Shown piece after piece: positions 694 to 24,253 of a DNA stretch of 27,733 nt; within the stretch, counting starts at the first letter, position 1; the number at the start of each line of letters is the position of its first letter. A program made the position numbers and the translations under genes. The stretch spans positions 1 to 27,733 of the IMG/VR virus record IMGVR_UViG_3300035187_002298; one strand, written 5' to 3'. The stretch is from a virus. Under the pieces are notes generated by a model. The model saw only the letters and a list, made by a program, of their open reading frames with translations, had not been told where the DNA came from and did no database searches.

Positions 694-701
694 TATTTAG
701 T
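694..701 (-). promoter_or_regulatory. Late-promoter-like box ACTAAATA upstream of the 176-aa gene
   Basis: Read on the minus strand, ACTAAATA ends 9 nt before the ATG at 684. It differs from the T4 late consensus TATAAATA at two positions. It overlaps the stop codon of the 382-aa gene, so it may be partly fortuitous. If it is used with T4 late spacing, transcription would start about 4 nt before the ATG. Confidence 0.4.
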
Positions 702-1845
702 GATTTTTTTGAATTAAACCATAAAGGTTTGGATTATATTCTTTTGTGTTGATATCTTTGACGATTTTGTCGGCAATGCTTTCGGATACAGCCTTCCACT
801 TTCCACCTTTGCTTTTATAGCATTTAGAGGCCCAAGCGTTTGCGTATGCCGAAGGATAAACATCAAATTTTTTCTTAGCTTGTGCTATGCAAGAAGACCA
901 TTTCTTTGGATTTTTGGCTTTATTTTTCTTTTCTTCATCTAAACACAAAACTTCTTCTTTTAACATGTCACTGACTGGTTTTGCGCTCCAAGTTTTGCAT
1001 GCCCAATAACGAGCTTTCCAACGAGGTCCTGGATTGTCACAGTTGTGTCTAGCTCTAAAGTTTTTACGGCGAGCAGGATTATCTCTTTTAATTTCCATGT
1101 TGGGGTCGCCAAAATTTACTTTGACAACATTCCCTTTATCATTTCTAACATAGACTTTGTATTTTTTGACATCGCCTTTCATGATCTTATTAAGTTTGAT
1201 TTTGGCTTTTTCATTTTCATGAATTTCAATCTTTTCGCCAAACTCATTGAATGATTGTTCTTCAATATTATCAATGAATCCCATTATGGTTTCAGGATTA
1301 AAGTTTTCTTCAATTTCCTGTCCATTCTCATCACTCATGCCTACGACAATTACATTTTCATTTTCTATGATGTAATCTACATCAAATAGCTGACCGCTTT
1401 CATTGATTATTAAATCACAAGGTAGAAGTTCCTTCGCTGATATTGGTGAAAAATTCATGTCAAAAACATTATTTGAATTTTCAACAATAAAAATGTCAAA
1501 ACTTTCTTTTACTTCAGTAACACCAGTTTTAACAAATACAGGTTTTTTACCTTTTCCTTTGACTGATCCTTTTTGTCCACGTCCTGCTTTCTTTTGAGCT
1601 GAACGTTTTCTTCTTACAAAAGAACCAATCTTTTCTTTACCCAATAATTTTGCTTTTTGTTTACTAAGACACGCCGAATACGATTCACCTTCTTCGGCAT
1701 CACCACACTTGCCTATTTTTTGGCCCTTTGTGTTATATCTATCCCAACCAGGACCACCACCAGCACTTTCTTTATTAAACCATTTGCCAAGTCCTGACTT
1801 AGCAAAAACTTTTTCTAAAATAGGCTGAATAATATTATTCTTCAT
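697..1845 (-). CDS. Modular cysteine/lysine-rich phage protein (382 aa), possible virion protein
   Basis: Three short modules are joined in one chain. Residues about 31-90 form a basic Gly/Trp/Cys module (GGPGWDRYNTKGQKIGKC, then RRKRSAQKKAGRG). Residues about 229-286 form a module containing NFGDPNMEIKR and HNCDNPGPRWKARYWACKTW. Residues about 313-350 form a Cys-containing module with YPSAYANAWASKCYKSKGG. An acidic linker of about 100 residues separates the first two. I recall all three modules from T4-like phages but know no biochemical function. The ATG at 1845 is preferred over a TTG at 1851 because it makes an ATGA overlap with the upstream gene and has a GGA-rich site before it. The N-terminus MKNNIIQPILE contains I-L-E, a prohead-protease-like site. 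Confidence 0.85.
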   Translation of the reverse strand: MKNNIIQPILEKVFAKSGLGKWFNKESAGGGPGWDRYNTKGQKIGKCGDAEEGESYSACLSKQKAKLLGKEKIGSFVRRKRSAQKKAGRGQKGSVKGKGKKPVFVKTGVTEVKESFDIFIVENSNNVFDMNFSPISAKELLPCDLIINESGQLFDVDYIIENENVIVVGMSDENGQEIEENFNPETIMGFIDNIEEQSFNEFGEKIEIHENEKAKIKLNKIMKGDVKKYKVYVRNDKGNVVKVNFGDPNMEIKRDNPARRKNFRARHNCDNPGPRWKARYWACKTWSAKPVSDMLKEEVLCLDEEKKNKAKNPKKWSSCIAQAKKKFDVYPSAYANAWASKCYKSKGGKWKAVSESIADKIVKDINTKEYNPNLYGLIQKNH

Positions 1846-4265
1846 TTCCAATCCTTGTCCTGTTTTTCACCTTTTTTGTGTCCATTATCAGATCTATTCT
1901 TTGATTTGTGTCTTAGGCGTAAATTATTTAGCTTGTTTGAACCACCATTTCTCAAAGGATTTTTATGGTCTACATCCATATCAGATCCTTTTTTGACTCG
2001 GCCTTTACGAATCAGTTTTTCTCTCGCGGATGTTCTTTCTGCTCGTTCTTTTTTCTGTTTTGGTTTACCGTGGTAATTGCGGTATTCCATTTTATAATCC
2101 CTCACATACTTTTCATATAAATTTGAATTATATGCATTCAAAACATATAAAAGTAATTTTGGATTATCTTGAGCTCTTTCTAACAAATTAGCGTATACAA
2201 CTTTAATTGTGTCTGCACTTTCATTTAATACATCTGGATTTGTTATTGAGTTGGCTTCGTTATCAGTAATTAAATTAGAAGCTATCAATTTAGATAAAAC
2301 AAAGTTATTCGTAAGAGCTTCAATCAAAATATCATTGGCCAACAACGCTACGTTTTCCTGAAATTCCAAACCTATAAATTCTGTTTTTTCGACAGGAATC
2401 TTTACAACTTTTTTCCCAATCTTTACATAATTGTATTGTACCGTGTTCATATCTTTGGGAGAAAATCCTGGAACCAAACTTACATTGATATCAAAATCCA
2501 TGTTTTGTGATGCTTGGGTTAAAGCCAATTCAACTGGATTTATTGCTGAGCGGGGAACAAAATAATCTTCAATAGAAGTTACCTTTTGCTCTTTTGCTTC
2601 TACTACAGTTGAATAACGGTTCAAAACATCAGAATATTTTTTATCTTTAGATATATTATCTGTACTTATTGATTGTTTTGTTGGTTTTACAGAAATTACA
2701 GATGTTTTACCAACCTCCGCAAAAAAGTCATCACTCATTGGAAAAATACCATTTTGAGTTATTAAATGAGTTGGTGCGGTTTTTGGATCTTTGATCATAT
2801 CTCCGCGATAATACATCTTTAAAATATTTTGAACAAAAGAATCTACAAATTGTGATTTATCTTTAAGATTATTTTTAAATAATCCCGTAGTTTTTTTACC
2901 AATTGCTTCTTTATAATTTTCAAAAGACGCAAACTTATTTAAATTGCCCTTTTCATCAACAACCATTCCAAGGTTTTTTCCAGTAGAATCTACCATTGGA
3001 CTGCTTTTTAGAATTTGTAGCAATTCTGGATTTTTATTTATTTCTTCAAATTTATCTTTAGTCAATAGCATATTTGCATATTGTGAACCAACACCCTGCA
3101 AACTTTTTGAAAATTCTTGAAATTTTTTATCTTTTTGTATATTTGGATCAGATACTGCTTGCGCTATTGAAGCAGCAAGTAGTCCTCTGAATGTTTTAGA
3201 TTTTTGATCAAATTTATCAGTTGTGAGCAAGAACTCACCGCCAGCAGAGATTTTAAATTTATAATCTCCGCATTCCATATCCACACCACCCTCAGAGGCA
3301 ACAGGATTTGATCCTGTTTCTACGTTTGAAACTAAAGTCTGTATGCATTGCTCACCCAATTGGGAAAGAATTTTTTTAGCTTGAGCGAATGCAATTTTGG
3401 TAAAATCAAAAGCTGACGGTGAAAGCGCAGAATAGGATTCTAATTCCTGTTCGGTTGCACCTGCTTTTACTTTTGCCAAGAATACTAATGCATTAATGAC
3501 TTGTTGATTGTATGGGGTTGCCGTCAATGTATTTATTCCAAACATTGTTGACAGCTTTTCAAAGGTTAACGAGTCAAATGCATTATTTGATGTGGGATTT
3601 CTTGTTTGCATGAAGTATTGTTGTCTTACTTCAAAAGGAACTTGAGCCAATTGCTCACCGTTCATTTGTTGCATAAGTTCAAATACTTCTTTTTTGGATA
3701 GCTTGCTTGCTTGTTTTTGTGGTTGTACTTGGGCGGTTTTTAGATCTTGATCTTTTTCTTCAGCCTCTTCATCTTTACCACTAGTTGATTTTTCAGATTT
3801 ATTTTTTTCAAGACTTTTTTTAGATTCTGATTCTTTTTCTTTTCTAGTGTTTGAAGCTTCTTTATCAACAGACTTTTTAATATCACCAAACAAAAGTTTA
3901 GATGCTCCAGTTTGTTCAAACTTTGGATCTTTTGTTACTGTTTTTGCTTCTTCAAATGAAAGGCTGTCAGATCTATTAATTTTTTGGTGTTTTGATTTAC
4001 TAAAAGAATCTTTAAAAATTAATTGAACACTACCAGATGGAGTTTTGACTGTAATAATTTCTTTTAAAAGTTCTTCTTTAGATTTTTGACTTCTAGGGAC
4101 TTGTCGTGCACGTTCTGCACGTTTTCTTGCAGCATCCTTTGCTTTTTGGTCTGCAGCACCAGATACTGCCCTTTCTTTACTCATGGCTTCACCAGTCGTG
4201 CGGAAAGAATCAGCCTTAGTTCGGCTATCTTCAGTTAAATTTAATAAAAGATCCTTGAAGTTCAT
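1842..4265 (-). CDS. 807-aa late protein with C-terminal HNH-like domain, candidate internal head protein
   Basis: The N-terminus MNFKDLLLNLTE resembles the capsid-targeting leaders of T4 internal proteins and ends in L-T-E, a gp21-type cleavage motif. Residues about 20-200 are very charged and probably disordered (runs of Lys, Glu and Ser). The middle is a long globular region I do not recognise. The last 70 residues are basic and carry DVDHKNPL, GGSN, NNLR and KNRS. This is the D-H...N...N pattern of an HNH/beta-beta-alpha-metal nuclease without zinc-binding cysteines. A late box CATAAATA lies 6 bp upstream of the ATG. The role is inferred: a packaged, possibly injected DNA-binding or DNA-cutting protein. 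The HNH-like tail could instead be a structural DNA-binding element. The stop overlaps the next gene as ATGA. Confidence 0.85.
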   Translation of the reverse strand: MNFKDLLLNLTEDSRTKADSFRTTGEAMSKERAVSGAADQKAKDAARKRAERARQVPRSQKSKEELLKEIITVKTPSGSVQLIFKDSFSKSKHQKINRSDSLSFEEAKTVTKDPKFEQTGASKLLFGDIKKSVDKEASNTRKEKESESKKSLEKNKSEKSTSGKDEEAEEKDQDLKTAQVQPQKQASKLSKKEVFELMQQMNGEQLAQVPFEVRQQYFMQTRNPTSNNAFDSLTFEKLSTMFGINTLTATPYNQQVINALVFLAKVKAGATEQELESYSALSPSAFDFTKIAFAQAKKILSQLGEQCIQTLVSNVETGSNPVASEGGVDMECGDYKFKISAGGEFLLTTDKFDQKSKTFRGLLAASIAQAVSDPNIQKDKKFQEFSKSLQGVGSQYANMLLTKDKFEEINKNPELLQILKSSPMVDSTGKNLGMVVDEKGNLNKFASFENYKEAIGKKTTGLFKNNLKDKSQFVDSFVQNILKMYYRGDMIKDPKTAPTHLITQNGIFPMSDDFFAEVGKTSVISVKPTKQSISTDNISKDKKYSDVLNRYSTVVEAKEQKVTSIEDYFVPRSAINPVELALTQASQNMDFDINVSLVPGFSPKDMNTVQYNYVKIGKKVVKIPVEKTEFIGLEFQENVALLANDILIEALTNNFVLSKLIASNLITDNEANSITNPDVLNESADTIKVVYANLLERAQDNPKLLLYVLNAYNSNLYEKYVRDYKMEYRNYHGKPKQKKERAERTSAREKLIRKGRVKKGSDMDVDHKNPLRNGGSNKLNNLRLRHKSKNRSDNGHKKGEKQDKDWK

Positions 4266-4271
4266 TTAAAT

Positions 4272-4279
4272 TATTTATG
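4272..4279 (-). promoter_or_regulatory. Late promoter CATAAATA for the 807-aa gene
   Basis: On the minus strand CATAAATA is followed by 6 nt (ATTTAA) and then the ATG at 4265. It matches T4 late consensus TATAAATA at 7 of 8 positions. With the T4 late spacing (box at -13 to -6) the start would fall one base before the ATG, giving an essentially leaderless mRNA. Confidence 0.65.
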
Positions 4280-4285
4280 ATAATA

Positions 4286-4864
4286 TTAAGGGTCTAGGGG
4301 ATTAAAAAGTTTTAACCCTTTATAACTTTTAATTTTACCTGTTGAAACTTTATAAAGATTTGATTTATTTAAATTATTGATACGAGCATATTCTGCTATG
4401 TTTTCAATATAAAAAACTTCTTTCGTATTCATATTTTGAAAAGTTGCACCATTAAAAATTTTAACCTTTTGTGGTGGTGGAGCCTTTTCTTTAATTCTTG
4501 GTCCAGTATCTTTACCAACTTCTCTTAATTCAGATGCTGTAAAACCTTTATATGTTTTTCTTTTACCATTTAAAAGCTCACATATTTTTACAGAACTTAA
4601 GCCATGTTGTTCACCAAATTTTGCCATATTTTCAAAAAATACTTTTTCACCAGTATCTACTTTTTTCAGCCAGTATCCATTATTGACTCTAGTTGGACTA
4701 ATCCATTTCCAGTATCTTCCATGTTTTTCAAACATACCACCATTGTCTCTGATAAACATTTCTCTAAACAATTTTGATTTAGAGTTATCATTCATCTTTG
4801 TCCAGAGAGGTGAATTTATTCTATTTACTTGTTCTTCAAGAGTTTTTAAGATTTTTATTTCCAT
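4286..4864 (-). CDS. NUMOD-like DNA-binding protein with two repeats, no nuclease domain
   Basis: The protein (192 aa) has two similar C-terminal modules, residues about 65-110 and 141-187. Each has a short beta segment naming a cofactor-like phrase (VDTGEKVFF / MNTKEVFYI), a helix-turn-helix-like stretch (FGEQHGLSSVKICELLNGK / YARINNLNKSNLYKVSTGK), and a closing YKGF or YKGL. This is the pattern of NUMOD/IENR1 modules found beside GIY-YIG and HNH homing endonucleases. No GIY-YIG or HNH motif is visible, so it looks like a stand-alone DNA-binding protein or a decayed homing endonuclease. The N-terminal 60 residues include a WKWISP segment. It overlaps the nuclease gene upstream by 29 bp and is probably co-expressed with it. 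Confidence 0.8.
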   Translation of the reverse strand: MEIKILKTLEEQVNRINSPLWTKMNDNSKSKLFREMFIRDNGGMFEKHGRYWKWISPTRVNNGYWLKKVDTGEKVFFENMAKFGEQHGLSSVKICELLNGKRKTYKGFTASELREVGKDTGPRIKEKAPPPQKVKIFNGATFQNMNTKEVFYIENIAEYARINNLNKSNLYKVSTGKIKSYKGLKLFNPLDP

Positions 4865-5504
4865 AAGTTACAATTGCCTCTTTTAATTTTTTAACATATT
4901 TTACTGGTTTGTCTTGAAAGACTTGTCTTAAACCATCTTCACATGCAACCATTATTGCAAAGTTATCTATAACAATTCCTGTTCTTTCTTGATACATTAA
5001 GGCATATGCAGTTGCTTGTGTAAAATAGTTTTCAATGTCTTGTTTTCTTTTTTCTTTAGTACTGGCTTTAAAGTCAATAATTGATAACTTGCCGTCGTAT
5101 TCAGCAATACAATCTGTTCTTCCAGCAAGACCCAAGATTTTAGACCATAATGGAGTTTCTAATGCTGTTACATTATCGATTTTATCTAATTCAGGTTTTA
5201 ATAAAAGAAACAAAGCCTTTACATTTGAATTTTCTGAATCCAAATCTAAAGGCTCATTCTTAATATATTTTTCTATTAAACTATGAAATTCTGTTCCTCG
5301 GCCAGTAACTCTTTTGCTTTCATCTGGGTTTTTTCTACGCCATTCAGCAAAAAATTGTTGTTTTTGAAAACCAACAACAGTTGTTACACTTGGAAATTCC
5401 CCTTCTGGGGTAGAATAAAAACGTTTTCCATCTTTTTGTACTTCTTTTAATAATACAGGAGGAATGTTATTTGATAAATGTATAAATGATTTTTGAATAA
5501 ACAC
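4836..5504 (-). CDS. PD-(D/E)XK exonuclease, RecB/Cas4/MGME1-like
   Basis: Core motifs of the RecB-type nuclease family appear in order: GRGTEFHSLIEKY with H74, AGRTDCIAEY with D131, SIIDFKAS with D144 and K146 (D-x-K signature), and a C-terminal Q163-x3-Y167 motif (QATAY). At 222 aa it is the size of the compact MGME1/Cas4-like exonucleases of phages. These act on single-stranded DNA ends during replication and recombination. The start codon is GTG at 5504-5502. An extended -10 element (TGA-TATAAT) lies 8 bp upstream, so early expression is likely. It overlaps the NUMOD-like gene by 29 bp. The family is clear; substrate and polarity are not. Confidence 0.9.
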   Translation of the reverse strand: MFIQKSFIHLSNNIPPVLLKEVQKDGKRFYSTPEGEFPSVTTVVGFQKQQFFAEWRRKNPDESKRVTGRGTEFHSLIEKYIKNEPLDLDSENSNVKALFLLLKPELDKIDNVTALETPLWSKILGLAGRTDCIAEYDGKLSIIDFKASTKEKRKQDIENYFTQATAYALMYQERTGIVIDNFAIMVACEDGLRQVFQDKPVKYVKKLKEAIVTYGNKNLKNS

Positions 5505-5512
5505 AGTTTTAT

Positions 5513-5540
5513 ATTATATCATCTAATTCTGGAAGTTCCA
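5513..5540 (-). promoter_or_regulatory. Early promoter for the nuclease gene: extended -10 TGA-TATAAT
   Basis: On the minus strand TG (5521-5520), A, and TATAAT (5518-5513) form a perfect extended -10. The TGA is also the stop codon of the 454-aa gene. A poor -35 (TGGAAC, 5540-5535) sits at the 16-bp spacing seen in the other early promoters of this window. The inferred start is about 2 nt before the GTG. Confidence 0.55.
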
Positions 5541-6883
5541 GAATATTTTCCTAAAATTCTAGCTAGTTGTAACCCAATATCTTTGCCAGTCAAATCTCCA
5601 GCCAATCCAGCTCCTGGGAATTTAGGAATTTCATTTTCTAATGATGTTCCACTTTTTGGACTTGAGGAAGAGGGGGGAGGAGGTGGTGGTGGAGATGATG
5701 GTGCTGGTGATGGTTGAGGTACAGGTAGAGGTAGAGGTGGTGCAACTGGTGGAGTTACAGGTGGAGTTACAGGTGGAGTTACAGGTGGAGTTACAGGTGG
5801 TGCAACTGGTGGAGTTACAGGTGGTGCAACTGGTGGAGTTACAGGTGGAGTTACAGGTGGTGCAACTGGTGGTGCAACTGGTGGTGCAACTGGTGGTGCA
5901 ACTGGTGGTGCAACTGGTGGAGTTACAGGTGGTGCAACTGGTGGTGCAACTGGTGGAGTTACAGGTGGTGCAACTGGTGGTGCCACTGGTGGTCTAAATG
6001 GTAATTTTGGTGGATTTACAGGTGGTGCAACTGGTGGAGTTACAGGTGGTGTAACTGGTGGAGTTGCAGGTGGTTCCAAATCTGGTAACTTTGGAGGTGT
6101 ACGCGGAACTGGTGGTGGTTGAAATGGAAGTGGTGCCGGAGGTTCTGGCTCCGGTGGACGAATAGGAATAGGATCACCAGGATCTACGTTTGGTTTTGGA
6201 CCCGGAACATCTGGTTCTTTTGGAAATGGAAGTGGTGCGGGAGGTTCTACATCTGGCTGCGGTGGTCTTGGTCCAGGTTGTGGTGTTTTGGGTGCAGGAA
6301 CTGGCACAGCAGCTCCTTCGGTTCCCGTTGCTCTCAATGCAGGGGACTCTTCTCTACTAATTTTACCAACAACAGATTCTGTACCATCTAATTCTTTTGT
6401 AGCACGAGCAGCATCATCAACTTTAGTAATTCCAATTTTCTCTAATCTTGCTAAGGCACCTTCAACTCGCTTAGCATCTGCAACAGTACCTACAAAGGGT
6501 ATGGATGCTAGTAATGCTAATTTGGCTCCATCAGCATCTCCTTGTGCAGCATATAAAGCTGCATCCAATAAAGATGCCGCATCACCATATCCGGGAACAG
6601 TGCTAGCCAAAGCTGCACCAGAATGGAATGTTTCTGGGTCTGTAAATAAATCTTTAAAATAATTTTTTGCAAATTCTGTTGGATTTGCTGCAATACCTTC
6701 GCCAGCCTCTTTGGCCATGTCTATAACTTCAGCACCACCTTCACCAACTTGTGATGCATAATCCTTTACTGCATCCCATGCTTTTTCCCACCATTTTTTA
6801 TCTTCAAATAATAAATCAAATTCATTTTGCATGAAATATCTGTATTCAAGCAAACTATAAAGAATGGGATTCTTTTGTTTCAT
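5519..6883 (-). CDS. 454-aa protein with Gly/Ala-rich module and long proline-rich repeat, candidate internal virion protein
   Basis: Visible regions are as follows. An N-terminal leader contains L-L-E (11-13) and L-F-E (25-27). An amphipathic helical region spans about 28-90. A Gly/Ala-rich module at about 96-136 has the phrases VPGYGDAASLLDAAL, AAQGDADGA and IPFVGTVAD. A proline-rich stretch from about 193 to 414 is built largely of four-residue APPV and TPPV repeats. A short conserved-looking tail follows (PKFPGAGLAGDLTG). The Gly/Ala module recurs in the 287-aa protein at 9540-10403 and resembles hydrophobic segments of toxin-delivery proteins (resemblance only). The Pro repeat should form an extended polyproline-II rod. 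It is translationally coupled to the 104-aa gene by an ATGA overlap. No enzymatic domain is visible. Confidence 0.85.
   Translation of the reverse strand: MKQKNPILYSLLEYRYFMQNEFDLLFEDKKWWEKAWDAVKDYASQVGEGGAEVIDMAKEAGEGIAANPTEFAKNYFKDLFTDPETFHSGAALASTVPGYGDAASLLDAALYAAQGDADGAKLALLASIPFVGTVADAKRVEGALARLEKIGITKVDDAARATKELDGTESVVGKISREESPALRATGTEGAAVPVPAPKTPQPGPRPPQPDVEPPAPLPFPKEPDVPGPKPNVDPGDPIPIRPPEPEPPAPLPFQPPPVPRTPPKLPDLEPPATPPVTPPVTPPVAPPVNPPKLPFRPPVAPPVAPPVTPPVAPPVAPPVTPPVAPPVAPPVAPPVAPPVAPPVTPPVTPPVAPPVTPPVAPPVTPPVTPPVTPPVTPPVAPPLPLPVPQPSPAPSSPPPPPPPSSSSPKSGTSLENEIPKFPGAGLAGDLTGKDIGLQLARILGKYSGTSRIR
5736..6072. repeat. Tandem 12-bp repeat encoding the APPV/TPPV polyproline array
   Basis: Two interchangeable 12-bp units, GGTGGTGCAACT and GGTGGAGTTACA on the plus strand, are repeated about 28 times with a few variants. 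Read on the minus strand they encode alternating APPV and TPPV steps. Units are almost identical at DNA level, so copy number is likely to vary by slippage or recombination. Confidence 0.9.
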
Positions 6884-7194
6884 TTTTTGTTTAGATTGAA
6901 CAAGTTACTAGTGATATTATTAGTATATGCTTTGCATGATGGTTTTTCAGCTTGCATTTTTTGATCATGTGAATTCAAAACATTTGAAACTGCATGTTTT
7001 GTGTTCTGTGAACTGTTCACTATGCCATTTCTTGCTTCATGAATATTTGGGCGATTTGCATTTGCACCAAATGCCATTACATCTTTTACCGTATTAATAA
7101 GGTTTGAAGGTTTTGAATTTACCTTTGGTTCTTGTTTTTTTCCCAAGAAATCCTTGACTTGCCAAAAAAGTTGTTTATTATTGTTGTTATCCAT
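6880..7194 (-). CDS. Hypothetical small Asn-rich late protein (104 aa)
   Basis: No recognisable domain. The sequence is polar, rich in Asn, Ser and Lys, with few hydrophobic runs, and is likely to be largely disordered. Its TGA overlaps the ATG of the 454-aa gene (ATGA), so the two are translationally coupled and probably work together. A variant late box, TCTAAATA, lies 10 bp upstream of its ATG. The shared late promoter suggests a small virion or assembly protein, but that is inference. Confidence 0.75.
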   Translation of the reverse strand: MDNNNNKQLFWQVKDFLGKKQEPKVNSKPSNLINTVKDVMAFGANANRPNIHEARNGIVNSSQNTKHAVSNVLNSHDQKMQAEKPSCKAYTNNITSNLFNLNKK

Positions 7195-7204
7195 GGCTGT
7201 AAAA

Positions 7205-7212
7205 TATTTAGA
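7205..7212 (-). promoter_or_regulatory. Late-promoter-like box TCTAAATA driving the leftward 104-aa/454-aa pair
   Basis: On the minus strand TCTAAATA (2 mismatches to TATAAATA) ends 10 nt before the ATG at 7194. It lies back to back with the rightward CATAAATA at 7217-7224 in the 40-bp gap between divergent genes. The predicted leader is about 5 nt. Confidence 0.5.
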
Positions 7213-7216
7213 TTTA

Positions 7217-7224
7217 CATAAATA
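7217..7224 (+). promoter_or_regulatory. Late promoter CATAAATA driving the rightward HNH/FmdB pair
   Basis: CATAAATA is followed by 10 nt (CTTAAGAAGT) and the ATG at 7235. It matches the T4 late consensus at 7 of 8 positions. The predicted start is about 5 nt before the ATG. Its position supports the ATG at 7235 as the true start, since any upstream start would lie on the wrong side of the promoter. Confidence 0.6.
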
Positions 7225-7234
7225 CTTAAGAAGT

Positions 7235-7732
7235 ATGAAGAAACAGGTACTCCTGTTGAATCAAGACAATACGCCCCTGAATATCATTACGATTTCAAAA
7301 GCTTTTAAATTGCTTACAAAAGATAAGGTGTGGGCTGATGACTCGACGGGGGAATACTACGAAGTTATCTCTGTCTCTAAAATTATTAAGATTCCCAAAA
7401 TTTTAATTTTAAAGTATTACGTAAAACTTCCGTATAAAAAAGTTCCGGCTTCCAGAAGAAATGTATTTCATAGAGACCAATATGTTTGCCAATACTGTGG
7501 TTTAGATCTTTGCGATAAAACTGCAACCATTGACCATATTGTCCCCAGATGCAAGGGTGGTGGATCAACATGGACAAATATGATAACTGCATGTAAAAAA
7601 TGTAATTTGGCAAAGGGCAACAGGACACCCAAAGAGGCCAAGATGCCAATAAAAAATAAAGCAAAAGAACCTTCATATGGATTTCTTTTTGATCACATGC
7701 TAATTACTTTTAAGAAAGATAAAAATGCCTAA
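7235..7732 (+). CDS. HNH endonuclease with zinc-binding cysteines
   Basis: The protein is 165 aa from the ATG at 7235. Longer upstream reading would run back through the promoter and the divergent gene. The N-terminus VLLLNQDNTPLNI is typical of a broad bacterial and phage HNH family. The HNH core is RDQYVCQYCG (C85, C88), TIDHIVPRCKGGG (D100, H101), W-x-N (N115), ACKKCN (C120, C123) and KGNRTPKEA. It should bind Zn through four cysteines and cut DNA with a single metal. In phages such proteins are either free-standing homing nucleases or packaging-associated nickases. Location among cargo genes favours the first, without proof. It overlaps the next gene by 8 bp. Confidence 0.9.
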   Translation: MKKQVLLLNQDNTPLNIITISKAFKLLTKDKVWADDSTGEYYEVISVSKIIKIPKILILKYYVKLPYKKVPASRRNVFHRDQYVCQYCGLDLCDKTATIDHIVPRCKGGGSTWTNMITACKKCNLAKGNRTPKEAKMPIKNKAKEPSYGFLFDHMLITFKKDKNA

Positions 7733-8086: not shown

Positions 8087-8094
8087 TATAAATA
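8087..8094 (+). promoter_or_regulatory. Perfect late promoter TATAAATA for the 155-aa gene
   Basis: This is an exact match to the T4 late box, with only 5 nt (ATTTC) between it and the ATG at 8100. With T4 late spacing, transcription would begin on the A of the start codon itself. Confidence 0.75.
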
Positions 8095-10408: not shown

Positions 10409-10416
10409 TATTTATA
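10409..10416 (-). promoter_or_regulatory. Perfect late promoter TATAAATA for the 287-aa gene
   Basis: This is an exact T4 late box on the minus strand, 5 nt (TTGGT) before the ATG at 10403. The predicted start coincides with the A of the ATG. It abuts the hairpin at 10417-10442 with no gap. Confidence 0.75.
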
Positions 10417-20875: not shown

Positions 20876-20883
20876 TATAAATA
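20876..20883 (+). promoter_or_regulatory. Perfect late promoter TATAAATA for the rightward lysis-type cassette
   Basis: This is an exact T4 late box. It is followed by TTAAGACATGGAG, where GGAG is a ribosome site for the ATG at 20904. The predicted start is A20889. The 18 bases from 20877 to 20894 are identical to the sequence at the tail-fibre promoter (27089-27072, minus strand). Confidence 0.8.
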
Positions 20884-22730: not shown

Positions 22731-23033
22731 TTAAACGTCTGTCGATCCAACAAACTCACCATTCGGAATGGATTTTGTAAAGGTATATGCAGATTTTACC
22801 TGATTCATTCCCTCAGCATCAATGACATCTGGTGCAAACCACACATCAAAATCAAACACATTGATGGTTCTTTCATCAAGAGGAATCTTATTGTCTATTC
22901 TTGCTTGTTCAGAAACATATCCATCCAAAATAACTGTACCTGTCTTGGCGGTATGATTCAGATTCAGAGTACGAATCTTCCAATATTGCGAATAGGTTCC
23001 TGTAGGATGTTGAATAATTTGTTGTAGTGCCAT
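22731..23033 (-). CDS. Hypothetical tail-module protein (100 aa)
   Basis: The protein begins MALQQIIQHPTGTYSQYWKI and is beta-rich, with VILDGYVSEQARIDNKIPLDERT in the middle and a helical end. I associate this type of protein with the tail-fibre region of T4-like phages of aquatic bacteria, without known function. The ATG at 23033 overlaps the upstream stop by one base (TAATG); a much longer in-frame reading upstream is a shadow of the neighbouring gene. It is likely to be a virion or fibre-associated protein expressed with the two genes before it. Confidence 0.8.
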   Translation of the reverse strand: MALQQIIQHPTGTYSQYWKIRTLNLNHTAKTGTVILDGYVSEQARIDNKIPLDERTINVFDFDVWFAPDVIDAEGMNQVKSAYTFTKSIPNGEFVGSTDV

Positions 23034-23356
23034 TAGGTTGACTCCAATACCGATACGATGATGTCCAATCCTGCGGTTGTGCCCTGTGTAGCCCTCAAAC
23101 TGTCTCCGGTTGTGAGAGGAATGGGAGTGTCCAATGCCTGATAGGTGGACTGAATGGGAACAGCAGCACCACGGACAATAAAATATCCCGTTGCGCCCTT
23201 GAAGAGTTGCACGGACACGGAGTTTGCTACAGTTGTATTGCTGTTGGCAATGTGAATGCCGTTCACGATTGCGGTTCCTGTGATTCCCGCATAGATCGTA
23301 GTGGCTGCTGTTGAGCCTGTGATGGATGTGGCGTAGTTTGTGTAGATGTCTGGCAT
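23033..23356 (-). CDS. Beta-rich tail-module protein (107 aa)
   Basis: A Thr, Ala and Gly-rich sequence of short beta strands (SITGSTAATTIYAGITGTAIVN, shortened here as TAATTIYAGITGTAIV; VSVQLFKGATGYFIV; LDIIVSVLES). This fits a small beta-sandwich such as a fibre cap or decoration protein. No family is recognised. A late box CATAAATA lies 18 bp upstream of the ATG with an AGAAGAAA stretch between, so this gene has a more conventional leader than the other late genes. Its stop is coupled to the next start (TAATG). Confidence 0.8.
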   Translation of the reverse strand: MPDIYTNYATSITGSTAATTIYAGITGTAIVNGIHIANSNTTVANSVSVQLFKGATGYFIVRGAAVPIQSTYQALDTPIPLTTGDSLRATQGTTAGLDIIVSVLEST

Positions 23357-23374
23357 ACGATGTTTCTTCTATGG

Positions 23375-23382
23375 TATTTATG
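23375..23382 (-). promoter_or_regulatory. Late promoter CATAAATA for the 107-aa/100-aa tail pair
   Basis: The box (7 of 8 match) starts 1 bp after the stop codon of the LamG-like gene. It lies 18 bp before the ATG, leaving room for the AGAAGAAA purine stretch as a weak ribosome site. Confidence 0.55.
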
Positions 23383-23383
23383 C

Positions 23384-24253
23384 TTATGGTGCTGCGTTTT
23401 TGTACGGGTGATCTGATGGAAGATTTGCGGATAGTCCCCATTTCCATGCAAGATAGCCTTCAATGAGTTGTCTGTTGGTGTCTGTGACTGCGGAATACAA
23501 AACAATTATTTCTTTCACACTAATTGCAGAGTAATAATTTCCAACCAATGCTCCCCGAAGAGAACCAACGCTGAAACCGTTAATCGATGCGACTAAACTG
23601 CCGCTTGTAGAATGTACTGTTGGGGTGACACCATCACGGGATAAACGAACATTGCTTGATGCGCCAAGTGCGGTGTTCCATGCAGAGAAAATGTGATAAC
23701 CACCACCAATATCCCAACTGTGTGTTGAAGTCCCAACATCTGCTCCCCAACCTGCAAACCCTACCGTTGTTTGATTAGCACCTCTATAAAATGTTCTGAT
23801 TCTCCCTGTCGCTCCTGTTTCACCGATTCCCATAACAACATCTTCGGTTCCACCACCACTATTCATTTTCATTACAGTAATTATAGTTACTGAAACCAAA
23901 TCGGCTGCTCCCACAGAAGCGTTGCTAAGAATATCATTAGTTCCATCAAATACAATTTCTGAATTTACACTACTGTATGTGGGTTGGTTTGCTGTTGTAA
24001 CCTGTGATATATTTCTAGCATTTCCACTCTTGTCGTTCCATTGAGATACGGTGCTACCATTAAGAGTTATAGTAGATGCATCGGCTGCATCAAACCAAAG
24101 GTCTGTCGTAATTTGTGATGGTGTCCAAGGATTGCTATTAAACTGCCCCAAATCCCTCTCAATGTAGTGCTTCAGAGCAGGAATGGTTCCTGCTTTGGTG
24201 CGGCGTTGATCTGTGTTGCCACAGTATCCTGAATTGAGTCGCCATCTTCTCAT
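23384..24253 (-). CDS. Tail protein with LamG/concanavalin A-like domain (289 aa)
   Basis: The N-terminal 40 residues ([19 protein letters not shown], then [16 protein letters not shown]) form a short virion-attachment motif I recall from T4-like tail proteins. Residues about 50-289 form a lectin-like beta-sandwich: [40 protein letters not shown], and the closing YLAWKWGL and LPSDHPY. Such domains usually bind polysaccharide, so a receptor-binding role is likely. The ATG at 24253 makes an ATGA overlap with the fibre gene upstream and is preferred to one at 24265. Confidence 0.85.

Follow-up and report, generated by a model that had tools for sequence, protein, structure and literature searches.

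The 807-aa protein and its closest described counterparts

The head proteins that T4 is known to inject either modify RNA polymerase or inhibit restriction enzymes. For targeting in T4, the first ten residues of the internal protein IPIII are enough, and gp21, the prohead protease, cuts there; Alt is cut by gp21 at both ends (PMC9026906). A nuclease packaged beside its own genome has been achieved by engineering: fusions of the capsid-targeting sequence (CTS) or of IPIII to staphylococcal nuclease and EcoRI are packaged and delivered by T4 (PMC9026906). Here we describe a gene for an 807-aa protein in IMG/VR virus record IMGVR_UViG_3300035187_002298 (positions 1 to 27,733; this whole 27.7-kb fragment is referred to as the window). 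The protein joins a leader-like start, a large body and a C-terminal HNH module, and the data partly support the view that it is a T4-type internal head protein with a nuclease payload from a known, uncharacterised phage family. If this is true, a natural, conserved and widespread case of such packaging raises the questions of how the packaged genome is spared and which DNA the nuclease meets first, and it gives a proposed role to the family, phrog_4590, which is listed in its library as function unknown.

The source of the gene is a T4-like freshwater phage. The window carries T4-type replication genes (DNA polymerase B, RecA/UvsX and class II ribonucleotide reductase), and its polymerase is nearest to those of T4-like cyanophages, at ~41% identity. 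The window is a fragment and contains no head genes. Among 15 fusion-bearing contigs, the T4 prohead protease (PF03420, S77) and the major capsid protein gp23 (PF07068) were found in two; these are the two longest contigs and the only ones >100 kb (126 and 137 kb). The plus strand of 1842-4265 is full of stops, and the 807-aa open reading frame (ORF) on the minus strand is divided as follows:

1842..4265, minus strand: 807-aa protein with leader-like start, body and C-terminal HNH module (ORF with ATG start)
4272..4279, minus strand: T4-late-promoter-like element CATAAATA just upstream of the fusion ATG (assigned by its position before the start)
4230..4265, minus strand: capsid-targeting-like leader MNFKDLLLNLTE, residues 1-12, with a predicted cut after E12 (from [LI]xE conservation and the T4 rules; PMC9026906)
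2112..4229, minus strand: body, residues 13-718, part of which resembles the predicted fold of cyanophage S-RIM50 R290704_184 (phrog_22045)
2112..2120, minus strand: predicted prohead-protease site L-Y-E, residues 716-718 (E718 invariant; boundary motif)
1845..2111, minus strand: HNH module (phrog_4590), residues 719-807 (profiles, model and conservation)
1896..1970, minus strand: HNH catalytic-type residues D766 and H767 (1965-1970), N781 (1923-1925) and N790 (1896-1898), from conservation

The free-standing phrog_4590 proteins share with the fusion the 75-90 aa module, the same residues and late structural neighbourhoods; they have a gene of their own of ~70-125 aa, whereas in the fusion the module makes up the final tenth of a leader-bearing protein of 807 aa. 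With T4 IPI-III and Alt the fusion shares a short leader ending in (L/I)xE, a T4-type protease in the genomes of relatives and a late expression signal, and, as the C-terminus of Alt is cut by gp21 (PMC9026906), so the fusion has a predicted C-terminal site. Homology to Alt or the internal proteins was not detected, however, and the enzymatic part of the fusion is a nuclease domain. The engineered T4 fusions resemble it as head-addressed nucleases (PMC9026906, PMC3012670), but they are laboratory constructs, whereas the 807-aa fusion occurs naturally and is conserved. The polyvalent proteins of Iyer et al. 2017, among them P1 DdrB with its ParB-type DNase domain, are large head proteins that have a nuclease-type domain and are processed before or in the head (PMC5512222), and one relative of the fusion (L381) combines HNH with lysozyme; the 807-aa protein has HNH rather than ParB, and its processing would be by a T4-type protease. 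Of the several unlike activities expected in one injected polyvalent protein, it has the HNH module, its body being unassigned to any known activity. Some metagenomic members of the cyanophage virion cytidylyltransferases (phrog_3041/395) carry the same HNH module, whereas the 807-aa protein has another body.

A predicted HNH nuclease-type fold at the C-terminus

Profile matches, a structural model and invariant residues support an HNH nuclease-type fold for the C-terminal domain. Residues 719-804 match phrog_4590 in the context of the whole protein (E = 2.1e-19); the domain alone covers positions 7-91 of the 100 in the profile (E = 2.4e-21) and was found in 41 INPHARED records by tblastn (best E = 3e-16). 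Against the Pfam HNH family (PF01844) this sequence scores 20.5 bits (E = 5.4e-4; cut-off 21.4 bits). All members of a 36-sequence alignment of the family match phrog_4590, while at E ≤ 0.1 Pfam HNH is matched by 18 of them and HNH_3 by 10 (best 3.1e-10). The HNH_3 cut-off is passed by seven of nine large fused relatives.

The initial annotation had read an HNH-like domain with D-H, NNLR and KNRS motifs in the last 70 residues, and these motifs do lie there, as D766-H767, N781 (NNLR) and N790 (KNRS), within the segment that matches phrog_4590. The four residues are identical in all 76 orthologues with a complete 3′ end. In 82 aligned relatives that lack the body, the H, N and N positions are kept in all 82, and the first position is D in 74 and H in eight; because some of these relatives were retrieved by patterns that include D-x-[DH]-H, it is N781 and N790 that test conservation independently here.

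Structure prediction, which that annotation had proposed as a check, bears it out as far as the arrangement of elements goes. The domain model (32 sequences; mean predicted local distance difference test score [pLDDT] 73.4, core 80-83) has strands at 47-51 and 66-70 followed by a helix at 71-76, a beta-beta-alpha arrangement, and both HNH strands appear again in the full-length model (mean pLDDT 71.8). The Foldseek matches of the domain model in the PDB are all weak (E ≥ 1), and the majority are HNH-type nucleases (Gme HNH nickase, TasH, Cascade-HNH, Cas9 HNH domains and EcoKMcrA); the Gme nickase ranks first after structural re-alignment (Z = 4.8, root-mean-square deviation 6.4 over 68 residues). 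The membership of the module in phrog_4590, its recurrence on other large head-type proteins and the protease-like site at its boundary were not part of the earlier description.

The module in other phages

We found 274 distinct module proteins in 400 loci: 166 are free-standing, 83 are body fusions, 24 have at least 80 other residues upstream of the module and one has at least 80 downstream. The free-standing gene, of ~70-125 aa (for example, ICP2 gp12, HTVC025P gp27 and Klyazma orf020), is a late gene in structural stretches in the records looked at. In HTVC025P and Gjalp it comes directly after the scaffolding gene; in HTVC204P it is preceded by a putative internal virion protein and in P-RSP2 by a terminase-like gene. 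Klyazma, CVT22 and T5S1-k141_18163 have it on the structural strand, downstream of genes for internal virion and lysis proteins; in CW02 it is near genes annotated as tail sheath, holin and tail fibre, and in ICP2 beside a gene matching a PHROG tail family. Its neighbours in 172P1, QDWS535 and RHph_TM27A are mostly unannotated. No virion proteomics for a phage with the free-standing gene was found in the open PubMed Central (PMC) literature, including the text available for Klyazma (PMC9960094).

Seventeen of the 24 other fusions form one similarity cluster in which several proteins carry cytidylyltransferase domains. Metagenomic cytidylyltransferase proteins with the module include L269 and L393. 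Cytidylyltransferase has been detected by mass spectrometry in virions of the T4-like cyanophages S-SM1 (PMC3037559) and S-CREM2, where the authors allow for co-purification (PMC10665884). A second cluster (L371, L373, L374, L381 and L390) comprises proteins of ~1,575-1,595 aa with missing 5′ ends and the module near the C-terminus. L381 combines its HNH module with a phage lysozyme domain, which is what one would expect if the protein is ejected. The module's partners in L366/L260, L364 and L369 have no other Pfam match or a weak one below the cut-off, and L370 has a further architecture, outside the Pfam scan of partners. The module tree (160 rows, 84 columns) needs ~9 changes between the fused and free states, of which well-supported branches force two.

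The settings of the free-standing relatives, in late structural modules with scaffolding, internal virion and lysis neighbours, would also suit a module that acts in assembly, entering the prohead core and trimming or resolving DNA at packaging, or helping the terminase. Action of this kind has been proposed for late-gene HNH proteins such as HK97 gp74. We consider such a role unlikely, if worth keeping in view, because here the module belongs to a leader-bearing protein encoded far from the terminase and relatives are fused to cytidylyltransferase proteins of the kind found in virions. A DNA-binding or structural tail, which packs DNA or anchors the protein and in which cleavage is incidental or lost, would account for the very basic character of the module and for a conserved basic stretch near the N-terminus of the fusion (residues 42-58), and T4 internal proteins touch packaged DNA via lysines (PMC3012670). 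The invariance of the four catalytic-type residues (76 of 76 orthologues; H, N and N in 82 of 82 relatives without the body) makes a tail of this kind improbable.

The leader and the late-promoter-like element

Capsid targeting of the fusion is supported by several features of the sequences: the leader, the gene context, the protease and capsid genes of the long relatives and the late-promoter-like element. The comparison involves the following neighbours:

700..1851, minus strand: downstream gene, ~382 aa, with leader ...ILEKV (segments matching phage proteins)
154..684, minus strand: 176-aa protein with a leader of the type MKFKxLL...xE (N-terminus conservation)
4286..4864, minus strand: upstream gene, 192 aa, with I-HmuI/NUMOD-like DNA-binding repeats (profile matches)
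4836..5504, minus strand: PD-(D/E)XK nuclease-superfamily protein, 222 aa, a conserved neighbour (PF12705, E = 6.8e-8)

The start of the 807-aa protein had been described as capsid-targeted in appearance, a description that agrees with its orthologues: the fusion starts are conserved as MNFKxLL...(L/I)xE, and 55 of 56 distinct N-termini have [LI]xE between residues 6 and 22. The 176-aa neighbour, for which neither homology to the fusion nor an INPHARED match was detected, starts MKFKxLL...xE and has [LI]xE in 53 of 54 distinct N-termini, and all 47 N-termini of the 382-aa neighbour contain ...(L/I)xEKV. The gp21 of related contigs itself starts MKLITELTED, with the same LTE as the fusion leader. 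Among the controls, [LI]xE is present in 16 of 64 N-termini of the NUMOD-like neighbour, in 0 of 14 of the HNH_5 protein and in 0 of six of the RuvC-like protein. All 57 N-termini examined for the PD-(D/E)XK neighbour contain it too, inside a conserved 'LKE' segment, so the motif alone is not specific, and we dropped the bare count of LxE as proof that a protein goes to the head. A stricter leader pattern matches six of 171 and three of 165 gene starts, versus 0 of 535 and one of 501 internal Met positions; this pattern was written after the sequences were seen, and some of the matches may be accidental.

TAAATA stands 6-7 nt before the fusion ATG in all 46 distinct upstream regions, versus 1.9% of all ATGs. 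In the two long contigs, 23 of 171 and 27 of 165 gene starts have it with its end 3-14 nt upstream, versus five of 612 and six of 585 internal Met codons. The known T4 late promoter is TATAAAT (PMC3037559). Over the whole window neither TATAAATA (three found, 2.0 expected) nor TAAATA (31 found, 29.5 expected) exceeds chance; the information lies only in where the words stand relative to starts. Each of the three exact TATAAATA sites is found 5-20 nt upstream of a gene start: 8087-8094 (plus strand), 10409-10416 (minus strand) and 20876-20883 (plus strand).

The protein might instead be a late protein of the cytoplasm whose N-terminus ends in LxE by chance. LxE is indeed common: 13% of the internal 30-residue windows in the fusion family contain it, as does every N-terminus of the PD-(D/E)XK neighbour, and the body is without an assigned function. 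We give this explanation a low probability, because the leader M(N/K)FKxLL...xE is common to two unrelated neighbouring proteins, a late-type element precedes the start, and the module is also fused to cytidylyltransferase-type proteins.

A candidate protease site at the module boundary

Directly before the module stands E718, which all 75 full-length sequences share; two positions ahead of this residue, 60 of them have L, I or V and 15 have M, F or Q. To count the motif independently of the alignment, we used the octamer before the R-[ND]-Y start of the module (six of the 274 proteins, in which this start motif was not found, were dropped) and took the octamers of the same proteins as background. 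[LIV]xE occurs in this boundary octamer in 75 of 83 body fusions (8.3% of background octamers) and in 14 of 24 other fusions (10.4% of background octamers). The free-standing genes have it in two of 49 cases with a nominal extension and two of 112 without; they are an imperfect control, since in many of them the extension is probably not translated, the reading having begun at a start codon farther upstream, and the background octamers are the fairer one. Counted by distinct octamers, the figures are 46 of 52 for body fusions, 11 of 19 for other fusions, and two of 46 for free-standing genes both with and without an extension. Well-formed sites include 'FIAE' in L260/L366, 'FISE' in L370 and 'RLSE' in L330. 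The presence of a gp21-like [LIV]xE motif just upstream of the module, which is new here, suggests that the prohead protease may free an ~89-aa nuclease in the head.

Constancy of the fusion and selection on the module

The orthologue survey covered 176 loci; because one source search kept the best 80 of 124 relatives, the orthologue set is a sample. It contains 79 distinct body-containing ORFs, of which 76 have the module at their extreme end, two run off the contig and one is L045. Among the 77 body orthologues with a complete 3′ end, L045, the N-terminal piece of a frame-broken gene, is thus the single one without the module. Queries with the body only reached 69 of the 75 full-length fusion sequences. 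In the larger set of 400 loci there are six body ORFs without the module: two run off contigs, and the others are pieces of the frame-broken L045 and L354. Both of these are fusion orthologues split over two or more frames, by sequencing error or real decay.

The HNH module is a constant part of this body family. It is also the best conserved part, with a majority identity of 0.83-0.88 per 25-residue block versus 0.45-0.83 elsewhere (40 sequences), and it is under stronger purifying selection than the body: its ratio of nonsynonymous to synonymous substitution rates (dN/dS) is 0.014-0.11 and is below that of the body in all nine computable pairs out of 12 tried. As for a present/absent polymorphism of the homing type, there is no complete module-less body orthologue among those examined. 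A homing endonuclease fused to the 3′ end of a host gene and spreading by cutting module-less alleles, for which one might cite the HNH and NUMOD-type genes nearby and the ~9 changes in the module tree (though starred branches force only two), is very improbable given the lack of such alleles among the orthologues examined, a module that follows the divergence of the body under strong purifying selection, and no intron or intein signs seen.

Proposed delivery of a nuclease at infection

Our preferred reading, to which we give slightly better than even credence, is that the fusion is a late internal head protein of a T4-type phage carrying a nuclease that is freed and delivered at infection. 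We infer its presence in the virion, cleavage, ejection, nuclease activity, target and sparing of phage DNA; delivery of a nuclease at infection is plausible. The 807-aa precursor would be synthesized late and taken by its N-terminal leader into the prohead core, where the T4-type prohead protease gp21 would remove the leader after LxE. Probably gp21 would also cut after E718, leaving a free basic HNH nuclease of ~89 aa that would come close to the phrog_4590 proteins found free-standing in podoviruses. This nuclease, either alone or together with the body, would be kept in the head with the packaged DNA, enter the cell alongside the genome, and nick or cut the host chromosome, a plasmid or the DNA of a rival phage at the onset of infection. 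Self-protection might come from inhibition by tight packing or by the body, from modified phage DNA, or from a nuclease whose target is something else than the double-stranded DNA of the phage. The metals used by HNH enzymes are Mg, Mn and the like. T4 loaded with staphylococcal nuclease retains its DNA as long as no calcium is supplied (PMC9026906).

Several observations weigh against this reading, beyond the 57 of 57 [LI]xE N-termini of the PD-(D/E)XK neighbour. A nuclease packed with DNA needs a safety mechanism, and none was found: QueC and MethyltransfD12 are absent from all of five contigs; N6_N4_Mtase was matched in three of the five (two over the cut-off, in frames with stops) and was not matched in G001 or G002, the two contigs closest to the window. 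At the module boundary, eight of the 83 body fusions are without [LIV]xE, and the strict [LI]xE is missing in 20 of them (63 have it). The motif is missing as well in the five largest fusions (L371, L373, L374, L381 and L390) and in L369, L380, L393, L402 and L410; as L393 lacks it in a record (G028) that has the T4 protease, the boundary rule is not universal. Position 718 is also not unique, since three more hydrophobic-x-E positions are conserved in the body (E556, E649 and E682). Finally, the full-length model places E718 where a predicted helix ends.

Delivery of a nuclease might be a general device of T4-type phages, a 'cut-out nuclease' cassette in which a small HNH domain with a prohead-protease site before it is placed on various leader-bearing internal proteins, among them this body family and cytidylyltransferase proteins, and head maturation would free a nuclease to be ejected ahead of or with the genome and attack host, plasmid or rival DNA. 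We advance this extension tentatively and hold it to be rather doubtful. Such a cassette would resemble polymorphic toxin systems in the logic of a releasable C-terminal toxin, but would be loaded into a phage head.

The body of the fusion

The body gave no Pfam or PHROG match worth naming and no tblastn match against INPHARED at E ≤ 1, and on these grounds an Alt-like or other known enzyme in the body was ruled out; no Alt-type ADP-ribosyltransferase domain was matched anywhere in the fusion by Pfam or PHROG profiles at E ≤ 1. Comparison of the full model with the PDB by Foldseek yielded nothing credible, and VIA-align gave low Z scores only (best 4.0). The full-length model does match predicted folds in BFVD, from S-RIM50 (Foldseek E = 2.2e-6, probability 1.00) and S-IOM18 (E = 1.4e-5). 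The S-RIM50 match was identified by its length of 276 aa as R290704_184 (phrog_22045), which adjoins DUF6267 and cytidylyltransferase genes. Support from the sequence is weak (hmmsearch 4.6 bits, in a database of one sequence; hhalign probability 1.2%), so it is the Foldseek match that carries the resemblance. R290704_184 is without the HNH module; the body fold thus exists without the nuclease. A paper describing the fusion of body and HNH module was not found in the open PMC literature, a scope that most subscription papers fall outside.

Neighbouring genes and other observations

The probable ATG of the 382-aa gene, at 1845, overlaps the stop of the fusion as ATGA, and its product is a composite in which segments match proteins of cyanophages, pelagiphages and the HVA1 family. 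The 192-aa NUMOD-like gene lies directly upstream of the fusion in both long contigs too; a nuclease core was not detected in it with Pfam and PHROG profiles, and it could be a DNA-binding partner of the HNH fusion. One full fusion gene (L296, JAFMJI010000026.1) is on an 8-kb contig binned with a Chitinophagaceae metagenome-assembled genome (MAG), which may be a hint of the host or a binning error.

Further along the window, 5519-6883 (minus strand) encodes a protein of 454 aa that has a leader-like N-terminus and a long tract of PPV(A/T)PPV-type repeats; its place is occupied by other long proteins in the two long related contigs. The first part of an ORF at 22731-23447 (minus strand) looks out of frame and overlaps a neighbouring tail-type ORF, possibly through a frame break. 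A second, ordinary HNH_5 endonuclease gene is found at 7154-7732 (plus strand), on the strand opposite to the fusion.

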